A stretch of DNA of 21,635 nucleotides from a virus: positions 1-21,635 of the IMG/VR virus record IMGVR_UViG_3300043409_000447. One strand, written 5' to 3'. A program made the translations under genes and the position numbers. Positions 1,587 to 5,419 of this stretch are shown here, piece after piece. The notes beneath the pieces are model-generated. The model made no database searches, was not told where the DNA came from, and was given only the letters and a program-made list of their open reading frames with translations. Each line of letters begins with the position of its first letter. Positions within the stretch are counted from its first letter, which is position 1.

Positions 1587-1986
1587 ATAATTTGTTGGTT
1601 GTTCGGTCATATTCTACAAGAGATTCATAAACTTGCACGGAGTTGATGATGGTTGAGTGATCACGGTGAAGAATCTTGCCGATGGAAAGATAGGTCATCT
1701 TCAAATGCTTTCTACATAAATAGCAAAACAAGTGCCGAGCATCCATAATGTTTTGAGTGCGAACCTTATCGATGATTGCATCAGGTGTGACATCGTACAC
1801 GATTGCAACCACTCGCATCGCTTCAGTCCACTCGGCATCTATCTCGTTGATCTTGCATCTTGGATTGATGATTTCGTCTTTGAGTTTCTTGACCTCATCA
1901 ATTCGTTTTTGATTCAGTTCGGCAACAACTCCTTTGAGCCGTTTGACTTCTTGTTTTAGTAGGTGGGTTTCCTGGTAGTGGTTCAT
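1510..1986 (-). CDS. DnaA domain IV-like DNA-binding protein, 158 aa
   Basis: The C-terminal 100 residues match the helix-turn-helix domain IV of the replication initiator DnaA. They contain VYDVTPDAIIDKVRTQNIMD, ARHLFCYLCRKH, and then YLSIGKILHRDHSTIINSV, in which RDHSTI (108-113) corresponds to the GRDHSTV signature that contacts the DnaA box. The ATPase domain of DnaA is absent. Residues about 7-45 are a charged coiled coil that could mediate dimers. The start at 1986 was chosen because it overlaps the methyltransferase stop as ATGA; the open frame upstream lies within that gene. Lying next to the helicase and DUF6291 genes, it probably binds a phage origin or host DnaA boxes; whether it activates or represses is not visible. 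Confidence 0.8.
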   Translation of the reverse strand: MNHYQETHLLKQEVKRLKGVVAELNQKRIDEVKKLKDEIINPRCKINEIDAEWTEAMRVVAIVYDVTPDAIIDKVRTQNIMDARHLFCYLCRKHLKMTYLSIGKILHRDHSTIINSVQVYESLVEYDRTTNKLYVESLSLLGLHLHERSKLVNQYSPI

Positions 1987-3215
1987 AGTTCGTTGATGAT
2001 TTGAAATAATTGATAGGCAATTTGTGGCACTATTGCATTCCCATATCCTTTGATGGATTCCGCTCTCCACTTTGGAAAGGTAATTCCGTCCAGTTCGGTG
2101 GGAATCCCATCATCTCCGCCACAAATCGGGGATTGAGTTGGGAATTTTTCCCAATTTGCTGGGCTACAAAATTGTTTAAGTCCGTATGTCTTGGATATGT
2201 CGGATGTATTATTGTCGTACCTTGATTCTTGTCCGATGCCGTTGGTGTCGGTAGCATTCCGCTTCCTGCCATTGCGGATAAACCTGAACCCATTTGACTC
2301 TTTGGATTGTAAGTTTTCGATCCTTTGTGTCCTTCCGATGCTTGTGGTGTTGGCAGCATACCCATTGACATTGCTCGTGTTAATGTCACCGAGTGCATAC
2401 TCCCCTCCTTGACTTGTGTTGATTTCATCGTTGCCGTTGCGTTTGATGAATCCATTGCCGTTGGCGTAGGTAACATCCCCGATTCCACTACATCTCTCAA
2501 TTTCACACCCCACCTCACTCCCTCTTTGTTTGTTCTGAAATAATTGCCGTTTTCCATCTGCACATTCTTTACACATCCCCCTTCTGCATCCGCAGTTCTT
2601 GGTGTTGGTAGCATTCCCCTCATTGCTTGTTGCCCCAATCCGAGAATGAATGGACTGTTCCCCTTCTCCATTTGTTTCTGATTCCTGGCATCCACTTTCT
2701 CTATTGGTGCTTCGTCCATCATTGCCGTTGGCGTAGGCAATAAACCAGCATCGGTCTCTTCTATGCGGTGCGTTTTTGGCACAAGCTGGAATAATAAACG
2801 GCTGTACTTCGTACCCTTCATTTTCCAAGTCAAGGCACACCTGCTGGAATACCAGTCCGCCATCAATATTCGTGATACCAAAGACATTTTCAGCGATGAC
2901 GAATTTGGGTTTAATCTCTTGAATTGCTCGTAGCATTTCGCCCCACAAGTAGCGTTCATCATCCGTGCCTTTTCTTTTCCCGGCAAGGGAGAATGGTTGG
3001 CAGGGGAATCCTCCCGTAAGAATGTCAATTTTGTTTGCATATTTTTTGAAATCAGTTTTACAAATATCAATGTGACTATCCGCATCAGGGAAGTGATAGT
3101 CCAATACTTTTCGTGGAAATTCCATCCACTCGCAATGAAAGATGTTTTCCCATCCCATCCACTCCGCAGCGAGATCAAACCCACCTATTCCGCTAAACAA
3201 TGAACCGTGCCTCAT
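1983..3215 (-). CDS. DNA (cytosine-5-)-methyltransferase, 410 aa
   Basis: This is a C5-cytosine methyltransferase. Motif I is SLFSGIGGFDLA (S-adenosylmethionine binding, residues 5-16), motif IV is GGFPCQPFS with catalytic Cys72, motif VI is ENV (109-111), motif VIII is HRRDRCWFIA (151-160) and motif X is GNAIVP (392-397). Between 161 and about 350 lies a low-complexity stretch rich in N, T, G, D (for example YANGNDG, ATNTKN, TYANGNG, ATDTNGIG) where a target-recognition domain would normally sit. A conserved block (NWEKFPTQSP..GDDG.P..LDGITFPKW) precedes motif X. The stretch coincides with a long open +1 frame, reported separately. It probably protects phage DNA from host restriction; no partner nuclease is seen, so it looks like an orphan. 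It overlaps both neighbours by ATGA. Confidence 0.95.
   Translation of the reverse strand: MRHGSLFSGIGGFDLAAEWMGWENIFHCEWMEFPRKVLDYHFPDADSHIDICKTDFKKYANKIDILTGGFPCQPFSLAGKRKGTDDERYLWGEMLRAIQEIKPKFVIAENVFGITNIDGGLVFQQVCLDLENEGYEVQPFIIPACAKNAPHRRDRCWFIAYANGNDGRSTNRESGCQESETNGEGEQSIHSRIGATSNEGNATNTKNCGCRRGMCKECADGKRQLFQNKQRGSEVGCEIERCSGIGDVTYANGNGFIKRNGNDEINTSQGGEYALGDINTSNVNGYAANTTSIGRTQRIENLQSKESNGFRFIRNGRKRNATDTNGIGQESRYDNNTSDISKTYGLKQFCSPANWEKFPTQSPICGGDDGIPTELDGITFPKWRAESIKGYGNAIVPQIAYQLFQIINEL
2030..3184 (-). CDS. candidate overlapping gene in the +1 frame of the methyltransferase, up to 384 codons
   Basis: On the same strand, shifted +1, a frame stays open for 384 codons inside the methyltransferase gene. 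Its sequence looks like protein: WYSSRCALTWKMKGTKYSRL (111-130), LLFQLVPKTHRIEETDAGLL (130-149), five LPTP repeats at 149, 192, 238, 277 and 311 (for example GMLPTPTAMDSS), and the end LNPRFVAEMMGFPPNWTELP (350-369). The end resembles the 'LNP.WVEWLMGFP.GWT' tail I recall from other phage methyltransferases. I also recall similar sequences in alternate frames of phage Dcm-like genes, but cannot verify this here. The true start is unclear; ATGs at codons 76, 100, 108 and 122 are candidates, and frameshifting from the main frame is possible. It may be an extra protein or a target-recognition part. Confidence 0.45.
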   Translation of the reverse strand: MGLISLRSGWDGKTSFIASGWNFHEKYWTITSLMRIVTLIFVKLISKNMQTKLTFLREDSPANHSPLPGKEKARMMNATCGAKCYEQFKRLNPNSSSLKMSLVSRILMADWYSSRCALTWKMKGTKYSRLLFQLVPKTHRIEETDAGLLPTPTAMMDEAPIEKVDARNQKQMEKGNSPFILGLGQQAMRGMLPTPRTADAEGGCVKNVQMENGNYFRTNKEGVRWGVKLRDVVESGMLPTPTAMDSSNATATMKSTQVKEGSMHSVTLTRAMSMGMLPTPQASEGHKGSKTYNPKSQMGSGLSAMAGSGMLPTPTASDKNQGTTIIHPTYPRHTDLNNFVAQQIGKNSQLNPRFVAEMMGFPPNWTELPFQSGERNPSKDMGMQ

Positions 3216-4450
3216 AGTCTTTCTTCGTACATTGTGCGTTCACCGATGAATGTCGTTTTGATTGTGTAGCATTCACCGTGACGATTCTTTGCGATAATGA
3301 GTTCGGCTTCTTCTTGCTGGAGCTTCTCACCTGAATAGTATGCCGGGCGGAATGGGAACATCACGACATCCGCATCTTGCTCAATACTTCCACTCTCACG
3401 GATATCACTTAGCATAGGTCTCTTGTCCGCTCTCTCCTCACATTTGCGTGATAACTGAGCCAACACAATGACGGTGATGTTTAGTTCCTTAGAAAGCAAT
3501 TTAAGGTTTCGGGATATTTCTGCAATCTCTTGTTCCCGGTTTGTTTTTGTTCCTTTGATTAACTGGATGTAATCAATCACCAAAAGTTCAAGTCCGTGTT
3601 TGGCTTTGTGAATCTTGGCTTTTGATTTGATTTGTTGTATACTGCAATTCGGATCATCGTCAATGTAGAATTGCACCGTCTGATTGTTGGCTGAATTGAT
3701 AAGTTGCTGAACTTCAAACTCACGAAGGTTTGCATTGCGAATCTTCCAATTGGCAAGGTCGGTGATCAATGACAAGTATCTTTTGACAAGTTGCTCGTTG
3801 CTCATCTCCAGCGACAAGAACAATCCCTTACCACCAATCTTGGCAAAGTCATACATCAGCGACAAAGCGAGTGCAGTTTTACCTTGACCAGGTCTTGCAG
3901 CCATCACAATCAAATCACCATTGTTCCATCCACCCAATACCCGGTCAAGTCCTGCCCATCCCGTTTGTCTACCAGTGAGCTTGTCACCTCTTTGCACCGC
4001 CTCAATAATAGCATCGACGGTCTTGTTGGTAACTGTTGTAATTTGAACAGGATCGTTGATGGTTGTGAACTTGGTATTGTCAACCATCGTTTGAACATTG
4101 GTCAGAATCTCTTTCAAGTCCTCAGTCAAATCCAAGTTGCTGATGTTCTCAATGAATTGTTTCTTCAGGTACTTGTGTTCAAGTGCTGGAAGGTGACTGC
4201 TGATGTTTGGCATACCGTAGACATCTTGAGTCAAGCGACCGATGGCAACCATCTCAGCACGATTGAACTTCTTGCCTAAAGTCAGCACATCAATTTCATC
4301 GTTGTTGATGTACATCTCCAACATCACATCAAAGATTCTTTTGTTTAATGGTGTTTCAAACCATTGTGATTTGATTCTCGGCAACATTGCACGAGTTTGG
4401 TCGTAGAATAGTAGTTGACCAATAATGTAGTCCTCAAGTTCGCTCGTCAT
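3212..4450 (-). CDS. dnaB: DnaB-like replicative DNA helicase, 412 aa
   Basis: The protein has the two-part DnaB layout. Residues 1-100 are a helical N-terminal domain (ELEDYIIGQLLF, NKRIFDVMLEMY). A RecA-like ATPase follows with Walker A ARPGQGKT (185-192), the SLEMS glutamate (213-217), Walker B LLVIDY (289-294) and the C-terminal signature AQLSRKCEERADKRPMLSD, RESGSIEQDAD (331-361). The length is slightly short of cellular DnaB (about 450-470). It should form the hexameric helicase that unwinds phage DNA at the fork. The start at 4450 overlaps the DUF6291 gene by 17 bases, and the stop overlaps the methyltransferase start as ATGA, so the three are probably one translational unit. Confidence 0.95.
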   Translation of the reverse strand: MTSELEDYIIGQLLFYDQTRAMLPRIKSQWFETPLNKRIFDVMLEMYINNDEIDVLTLGKKFNRAEMVAIGRLTQDVYGMPNISSHLPALEHKYLKKQFIENISNLDLTEDLKEILTNVQTMVDNTKFTTINDPVQITTVTNKTVDAIIEAVQRGDKLTGRQTGWAGLDRVLGGWNNGDLIVMAARPGQGKTALALSLMYDFAKIGGKGLFLSLEMSNEQLVKRYLSLITDLANWKIRNANLREFEVQQLINSANNQTVQFYIDDDPNCSIQQIKSKAKIHKAKHGLELLVIDYIQLIKGTKTNREQEIAEISRNLKLLSKELNITVIVLAQLSRKCEERADKRPMLSDIRESGSIEQDADVVMFPFRPAYYSGEKLQQEEAELIIAKNRHGECYTIKTTFIGERTMYEERL

Positions 4451-5027
4451 ATTCTTGCAAGTTAAACACTTTTCGGTGGATAATTTGTGGAGTAGTCGTA
4501 TTATTTGAAAGATTATTGTTCTTCCAAGTCCGCACCGCTGCCCTCCAGTTCTTCATTTTGTTTTTACCAACTAACCATCCGTTTGATTCGTAGTAGTCAA
4601 ACCATTTTTCAGATACATCAGCCATTCCGATTTCAGTCATATAGGTTTTGATTTCAACAATGGATGGTTTGATAAAAACATCCTTCTTTACTTTTATATC
4701 TTTATCACTATCAATAACAATATCAATATCACTATCGGCATTTTTGGTATCATTTGGTATGCCACTTGATGCGGTCGCATCCCATCGCATACGAGCATTG
4801 TCAGAATTACGCTTCCTGATTGATTCGTATTTTTCCAAATCTCTCTTTAATGCTTGTCTAATTGGTTCAAATGCAATCTTGGTGATCACACTATCACTTT
4901 GTGGGTCTTGGTCGTTTACATAGCGTAGAATGTGCTTAAACAAATTACCAGCTTGTTCATCAGTTAATTGTTCTACGGTGTGAATAATATCACAATATAG
5001 AAGGAATGATTTTTTGTCGTTTGCCAT
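4434..5027 (-). CDS. DUF6291 replication-associated protein, 197 aa
   Basis: The start MANDKKSFLLYCDIIHTVEQ followed by LTDEQAGNLFKHILRYVND and AFEPIRQALKRDLEKYESIR is the DUF6291 family pattern, found in Bacteroidota phages next to DnaB-type helicases. A variable polar middle (about 80-118) leads to a C-terminal KWFDYYESNGWLVGK, MKNWRAAVRTW segment like the tail of phage replication-initiation or DnaD-like proteins. By position (immediately before the helicase) and layout I infer a helicase-loading or origin-recognition role. ATG at 5027 is chosen because it begins the conserved domain; upstream in-frame codons run into the structured leader. The start follows a hairpin and U-tract directly, so expression may depend on that RNA element. 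Confidence 0.8.
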   Translation of the reverse strand: MANDKKSFLLYCDIIHTVEQLTDEQAGNLFKHILRYVNDQDPQSDSVITKIAFEPIRQALKRDLEKYESIRKRNSDNARMRWDATASSGIPNDTKNADSDIDIVIDSDKDIKVKKDVFIKPSIVEIKTYMTEIGMADVSEKWFDYYESNGWLVGKNKMKNWRAAVRTWKNNNLSNNTTTPQIIHRKVFNLQEYDERT

Positions 5028-5083
5028 AAAATAAAAAACCCCTGAACAAATGATCAAGTACGAGTTGAACATTTGCCAGGAGT
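5028..5083 (-). terminator. intrinsic terminator or attenuator before the replication operon
   Basis: On the minus strand the stem ACTCCTG...CAGGGGT, with inner pairs CAAATG/CATTTG and TTCAA/TTGA, is followed at once by six T (5033-5038) and more T, then ATG at 5027. A terminator abutting a start codon, with no clear promoter between them, suggests regulated read-through. The stem has a small internal loop and an A.A mismatch, so it is not a strong terminator by inspection. Confidence 0.5.
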
Positions 5084-5129
5084 AAAGGTCTGATGATAGT
5101 TGTCTCGTACACAACTGAAATACCTTTGC
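5028..5129 (-). ncRNA. candidate structured RNA leader: two hairpins with complementary 7-base loops
   Basis: The leader of the DUF6291 gene can fold, in transcription order, as follows. An outer stem AAAGGT/ACCTTT (plus-strand 5122-5127 with 5084-5089) carries a 6-bp hairpin AGTTGT/ACAACT (5111-5116 with 5098-5103) with loop GTACGAG (5104-5110). A longer hairpin follows, with arms 5070-5083 and 5038-5052 extended by TCAA/TTGA, and loop CTCGTAC (5058-5064). The two 7-base loops are perfectly complementary, as in kissing-loop RNAs. Mismatched positions in the longer hairpin include a G.U that pairs only in the minus-strand transcript. No known riboswitch class is recognised. Seen: the pairing. 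Inferred: that it forms in RNA and regulates. Confidence 0.55.
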
Positions 5130-5140
5130 AATATACTACA

Positions 5141-5419
5141 TCAAACTGAATATCCCAAATCCTTTTTTACTTTGACTTGGTATCTTTGGCGTGACTGGTA
5201 GTTCTGCCCACGAAGATGTTCGTGATGCTCTTGGAGTTGAGCTCGTGTTCTTCGGATGGTTTCGGGTGATGGTAGTTGCTTGGCTTCAAACATCGTGAAG
5301 AAGTCATTGCCGTTGCACATCCCTTTATAGATCACCGTCATAAGTTTGAAATCACAATCCCTTGTTTCCGGCTTGTTAATCATTACTGCCGTTACCGTTG
5401 CTTTGATATACTTGTTCAT
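5141..5419 (-). CDS. conserved hypothetical phage protein, 92 aa
   Basis: The motifs NKPETRDCDF near the N-terminus, SPETIRRTRAQLQEHHEHLR in the middle and a basic end match a short protein family I recall from many Bacteroidota phages ('PETR..D......LPS.ETVRRTRQKLQE'). It is soluble, has no membrane segment and its function is unknown; the RRTR helix may bind nucleic acid. The start at 5419 has an ACTATG context and lies 44 bases inside the previous gene. The stop precedes the structured leader of the replication block, making this the last gene of its transcript if the hairpin there terminates. Confidence 0.75.
   Translation of the reverse strand: MNKYIKATVTAVMINKPETRDCDFKLMTVIYKGMCNGNDFFTMFEAKQLPSPETIRRTRAQLQEHHEHLRGQNYQSRQRYQVKVKKDLGYSV

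Follow-up and report, generated by a model that had tools for sequence, protein, structure and literature searches.

The question raised by this locus is what two hairpins with exactly complementary loops are doing immediately ahead of a set of viral replication genes. The DNA analysed, called the window throughout, is an IMG/VR virus record of 21,635 bp, whose minus-strand genes include ERF, a YqaJ recombinase, DUF6291, a DnaB helicase and a C5 methyltransferase, among others. The hairpins occupy a leader gap of 113 bases (5028-5140), bounded by the DUF6291 start at 5027 and the stop of the upstream ORF at 5141, and the genes upstream are transcribed in the leader's direction. The genes behind the gap are as follows.

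4434-5027, minus strand: DUF6291 gene, probably encoding a replication initiator or primosomal protein (Pfam PF19808 and a weak primosomal PHROG match)
3212-4450, minus strand: DnaB-like replicative helicase gene
1983-3215, minus strand: C5 cytosine DNA methyltransferase gene

The methyltransferase gene is overlapped out of frame by a 384-aa open frame (2030-3184, minus strand), which carries repeated MLPTPTA-like motifs and has no Pfam match.

A preliminary description had placed in the 113-base gap two exactly complementary 7-base loops (on the plus strand, GTACGAG at 5058-5064 and CTCGTAC at 5104-5110), an AGTTGT/ACAACT stem and a longer hairpin, all of which are present in the sequence. 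Read as minus-strand RNA, the order is -33 TTTG, 20 nt, TATATTGC, hairpin I, linker, hairpin II, U6, AUUUU and AUG.

5156-5159, minus strand: TTTG, candidate -33 promoter element, 20 nt 5' of the -7 box (from sequence; the -33 assignment is putative)
5128-5135, minus strand: TATATTGC, candidate -7 promoter box (from sequence; in the same place in nearly all compiled leaders)
5098-5116, minus strand: hairpin I, AGUUGU / loop GUACGAG / ACAACU (sequence and folding; stem kept with compensatory change in the family)
5104-5110, minus strand: kissing loop I, GUACGAG
5083-5097, minus strand: linker between hairpins I and II, containing ACCUUU, whose pairing is unsupported
5039-5082, minus strand: hairpin II, the predicted terminator stem, CUCCUGGCAAAUGUUCAA / loop / UUGAUCAUUUGUUCAGGGG (folding and comparison)
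5058-5064, minus strand: kissing loop II, CUCGUAC, exactly complementary to loop I
5033-5038, minus strand: U6 tract of the predicted intrinsic terminator, followed by AUUUU and then AUG (from sequence)

The Bacteroidota promoter consensus is TTTG/TAnnTTTG (PMC7366714). The window's -7 box agrees with TAnnTTTG at 6 of 8 bases, the match being full in most relatives, where the box mostly reads TATATTTG; transcription of the window leader is predicted to start a few bases 3' of it. Two details of the earlier account need revision. The outer helix AAAGGT/ACCTTT is not conserved and is doubtful, because its 5' strand abuts the -7 box and may partly precede the start site, and because the relatives L078 and L114 break the pairing. 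The six U placed directly before the DUF6291 start are indeed present, but they do not adjoin the AUG, since five bases (AUUUU) intervene.

The minus-strand leader RNA folds at -28.9 kcal/mol (z = -4.5; equalled by 0 of 200 shuffles), while the plus-strand fold is weaker (-22.8, z = -3.3). The window holds a single pair of hairpins with exactly 7-nt, exactly complementary loops at most 80 nt apart, and 300 dinucleotide shuffles of it gave 33 such pairs on both strands, about 0.1 per window, in a count that required neither a T-run nor a gene gap. The window alone is therefore suggestive, not proof, and the decisive support for a putative kissing leader is comparative. The window matched no Rfam 15 covariance model at gathering score, in agreement with the preliminary description, whose author knew of no described class with this exact layout, and seven leader loci searched against Rfam 15 at E<=1 gave nothing relevant. 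In the searched open-access literature, with subscription journals outside its coverage, there was no paper on DUF6291 or on a kissing-hairpin leader layout.

The sources of the leaders were IMG/VR contigs and cultured phages of Flavobacterium, Olleya and Cellulophaga. A nucleotide search of the window leader against phage records returned chance-level matches only, so protein-anchored and covariance searches were needed, and relatives were reached through DUF6291 homologues in viral contigs and through pattern scans. The compiled set comprises 46 leaders with 38 distinct kissing pairs, every kiss being 6-9 bp, with a kiss-to-kiss spacing of 45-63 nt and a terminator 5' arm of 14-21 nt. Leaders within a class share ancestry and do not count as independent events, so the 38 distinct pairs give the better measure. 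In type 1 leaders the kissing loops are mostly exactly 7 nt, for example GUAAGAG/CUCUUAC, GUAGAAG/CUUCUAC, GUAGGAG/CUCCUAC, GUAGCAG/CUGCUAC, AUUGAGG/CCUCAAU, AUUGCGG/CCGCAAU, GUCGCAG/CUGCGAC and GGGGAAG/CUUCCCC, and outside the promoter and U tract there is no invariant unpaired core. In type 2 leaders the kiss is mostly 8 bp (GGUCUCAC/GUGAGACC, CGUCUGAC/GUCAGACG and GGCUGGAC/GUCCAGCC are examples); the linker AAAG-NN-RTTATTA is conserved in this type, and the terminator has an internal loop, UGAA/GGAU. This internal loop possibly forms tandem G-A pairs (L162:3880-3980 and relatives; L222:2132-2241). Compared with L162, the lillamy group has the two loop sequences exchanged between its hairpins.

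Comparison of these leaders carries the main finding. The 14 leaders of alignment A3 pair throughout the kissing helix (100%), and 6 of its 7 pairs are changed on both sides; all whole-structure measures lie above all 500 shuffles, and the signal is lost when the 3' partners are slid by 1-3 columns. The type 2 alignment has 7 of 8 kissing pairs changed on both sides. The kiss is Watson-Crick in 98/98 cells of A3, a biased figure, since it was largely through exact complementarity that rows entered A3. A permutation test free of this bias picked upstream regions by protein, took the terminator loop from the local fold and measured the longest upstream complement. In 32 of 43 clusters the leader's own upstream region held a complement of at least 6 nt, whereas mismatched combinations reached this length in 8.6% of cases, and the mean complement length was 6.35 against 4.02 (sd 0.13 under permutation). 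This upstream pairing belongs to the terminator loop (mean z -4.15), the arms being at about 0. Additionally, a model from which the kiss and the window's own class had been removed (R1, derived from A3) recovers the window leader at 36.6 bits, E = 1.1e-4. The nested helices contain 61 G-U cells against 1 A-C, so the fold has been selected as RNA in the leader's sense.

The preliminary description had stated that its reading would fall if related phages lacked covariation in the loops or stems; covariation was found in both. The compact structured RNA that it proposed, in which kissing hairpins accompany a terminator and the strand is that of the replication operon, is conserved among relatives. 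A hairpin with an adjoining U tract, the sequence signal of an intrinsic terminator, is kept with covariation, and the conserved, covarying complementarity of the two hairpin loops marks the element as a putative kissing-loop RNA. The loops diverge no faster than the stems, so that selection for loop specificity is unproven; for the same reason, loop hypervariability was rejected as proof of diversifying selection. The leader RNA is apparently an undescribed family of RNA elements present in many Bacteroidota phages, because the predicted loop-loop pairing outlasts complete sequence turnover. Among 395 cellular Bacteroidota genomes, models R1 and R2 each gave 0/395 in a weakly sensitive search that scored 10 candidates per genome; one single-cell genome carries a leader. 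DUF6291 genes in Flavobacterium, Sphingobacterium and Pedobacter genomes have no leader within 130 nt upstream, and no credible second leader copy occurs in complete or near-complete phage records.

Several cultured phages carry the leader. Among the Flavobacterium phages, lillamy and tooticki have GUGAGACG/CGUCUCAC, morran has GUGAGAAG/CUUCUCAC, mumin and snusmum have GUGGAACG/CGUUCCAC, elemoA_7-9A has UGAGAGC/GCUCUCA, elemoA_2-5C and 15-3D have GUGAGAUG/CAUCUCAC, and elemoE has GUGGAGG/CCUCCAC; Olleya phage Harreka_1 has GUGGUGG/CCACCAC, and Cellulophaga phages phi19:3 and phi13:2 have CUCUCACA/UGUGAGAG. Identical leaders are common to the genera Lillamyvirus and Muminvirus, and the near-identical elemo phages differ sharply at the stretch of tRNA and leader (L222:2080-2300; L228-L231; L232-L236). 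Between elemoA_7-9A and elemoA_15-3D this stretch is 72-79% identical, against 96-100% for the immediate downstream genes and 94-100% for genes farther upstream. The tRNA gene just ahead of the leader also differs between close elemo phages (L234:2770-2845 against L232:2765-2838), being annotated as tRNA-Ala in the former and tRNA-Met in the latter.

In most leaders the terminator lies near the start codon of the first gene of the replication operon. The genes found behind leaders include DUF6291 and two further replication-initiation proteins (PHROG 270), endonucleases of the GIY-YIG and NUMOD4-HNH kinds, and small unrelated ORFs ahead of primase or helicase genes. Because these downstream genes vary, non-homologous initiators among them, while the leader stays, what the RNA follows is the starting position of the replication operon, not any one gene. 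Its sequence context gives the leader the look of a joint at which modules are exchanged. Homing-endonuclease-like genes stand directly behind the leader, before the initiator or replacing it, at L006:3487-4011, L078:4176-4682, L075:880-1179 and L219:7428-7895, and the spot looks like a favoured insertion site for such genes.

As for function, the reading that we hold to be somewhat more probable than all others together is that the leader is a cis-acting transcription attenuator serving phage replication operons, and that the pairing of its two loops biases the terminator. Comparison at the sequence level establishes both hairpins, their covarying kissing complementarity and a terminator signal, and likewise the promoter box, the orientation in sense and the position ahead of replication genes; we infer a choice between termination and read-through, biased by the kiss. 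A dedicated promoter would start a transcript of about 100 nt, from which hairpin I would fold first and present its loop of 7-8 nt. The terminator hairpin would emerge later, and its exactly complementary loop would kiss loop I during transcription. RNA polymerase would then either halt at U6, freeing the leader as a small RNA, or continue into the initiator and helicase genes. RNA polymerase holds about 14 nt of RNA. The terminator arm (14-21 nt) is close to this length, and the loop would therefore emerge shortly before the terminator closes, which would give hairpin I the chance to catch it and so postpone termination. In the direction that is slightly favoured, loop I would seize the terminator loop before the 3' arm emerges, so that the delayed terminator gives read-through; occupation of loop I, for example by terminated leader RNAs accumulating with phage copies and kissing nascent leaders, would restore termination. 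The kiss could also be neutral for termination or favour it, because the terminator stem looks strong enough unaided. By linker-length arithmetic (about 11-16 nt), which is not a model, an intramolecular kiss with the full terminator is just possible. Counting against an attenuator, some phages have a small ORF or an endonuclease gene between leader and initiator.

A classical antiterminator was rejected, as neither terminator arm has an alternative upstream partner: against upstream sequence the two arms have mean z of 0.39 and 0.17, with values below -2 in 0/46 and 2/46 leaders. A separate antisense RNA was rejected because no promoter motif for it is enriched: an opposite-strand -7 motif, counted as a sequence motif only, lies at most 200 nt downstream in 3/46 leaders against 9.3 expected. 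Any RNA acting in trans is thus most likely the leader itself. The best surviving alternative, which we consider unlikely, is that the terminated RNA of about 100 nt is the main product and that its loops kiss those of further copies; copy-number feedback or exclusion of superinfection would result, with specificity encoded in the loop, as in plasmid incompatibility. Its own promoter and terminator bound a compact RNA, both complementary loops lie on a single molecule, and phages isolated on the same host have different loops; in plasmids, moreover, single-base changes in kissing loops alter compatibility (PMC10724649, PMC9458437). Against this, the loops do not outpace the stems in divergence, many phages of one host have identical leaders, and the conserved spacing is equally required by a contact in cis. 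A phage counterpart of plasmid incompatibility, in which leader RNA accumulates with genome copies, kisses nascent leaders of the same loop and shuts off the replication genes, would be an improbable outcome as well. If it were true, the loop sequence would set both copy-number feedback and interference among co-infecting or resident phages, and one self-complementary RNA would suffice without an antisense gene.

It is less probable still that the kiss stabilises a plain terminator, insulating the replication operon from upstream read-through with no switching, and that the conserved leader serves as a joint for exchanging modules. The codirectional upstream genes and the exchange of modules behind the leader fit such an insulator; however, a kissing partner is superfluous to a strong hairpin with U6-U8, the strict retention of complementarity across 38 different sequences speaks for a working role, and a promoter just 5' of an unregulated terminator ahead of its own genes would be pointless. 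We give little credence to a ligand- or protein-sensing riboswitch that uses the loop-loop contact for its fold in the purine-riboswitch style. Loop-loop contacts do organise known aptamers, and type 2 leaders have a common conserved linker and internal loop, but no helix runs round both hairpins, type 1 has no invariant unpaired core beyond promoter and U tract, and an Rfam match is absent. A single-stranded DNA or replication-origin element can hardly be credited at all, for although the leader adjoins replication initiator genes, it is framed by a promoter and a T-run, and the 61 G-U cells counted on the leader strand, with 1 A-C, indicate one-strand selection as RNA.

The RNA family is widespread in Bacteroidota phages and is placed before non-homologous replication genes, and these leader elements are probably switches controlling the timing of phage replication. 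The loop-loop contact, which has strong covariation, would involve the terminator itself. The leader offers a handle on replication timing or dosage in poorly known phages. The presence of the leader in cultured phages of Flavobacterium, Olleya and Cellulophaga, and of natural loop variants on a single host, makes attenuation and loop specificity testable at once. For RNA circuit design, a kissing loop that gates a terminator would be a simple orthogonal component.

Among known systems, the purine riboswitch (Rfam Purine) likewise has two hairpins with a loop-loop contact 5' of an expression platform. This comparison, made in the preliminary description, fails because no junction helix encloses both hairpins; the helix P0, where present, encloses hairpin I only, the terminator hairpin is itself the kissing partner, and Rfam gives no match. 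The kissing loops of ColE1 are 7 nt and fully complementary. The earlier likening to ColE1 holds for this loop geometry and goes no further, because the antisense promoter of such an arrangement was not found. ColE1 RNAI/RNAII and IncI/IncK RNAI share loop-loop kissing, replication control and loop variants with the leader (PMC9458437, PMC10724649), but theirs are sense and antisense RNAs from opposite strands, whereas in the leader one RNA carries both loops, with a terminator as the target. The CI RNA immunity of satellite phage P4 resembles the leader in concerning phage replication genes, in having complementary elements within one replication-gene leader, and in premature termination, which is predicted here (PMC4825925). 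In P4 the processed CI RNA pairs with seqA and seqC (PMC4825925), whereas the leader has a pair of short hairpin loops, of which one caps the terminator, and is not known to be processed. The pT181 and pIP501 attenuators are alike in having a replication-gene leader, kissing hairpins and a terminator that decides read-through (PMC3753616), a control that would apply here by analogy. A replication-gene leader and a terminator before the gene are found in both; pT181 uses a separate, counter-transcribed antisense RNA and an antiterminator sequence (PMC3753616), while here there is no antisense promoter found and no alternative pairing of the terminator arms. By the tests made on its sequence, the leader is not a pT181-type member. 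Both of its kissing loops lie in one RNA, one of them capping the terminator, and it is set apart from the textbook attenuators because the sole conserved link between hairpin I and the terminator is loop to loop.
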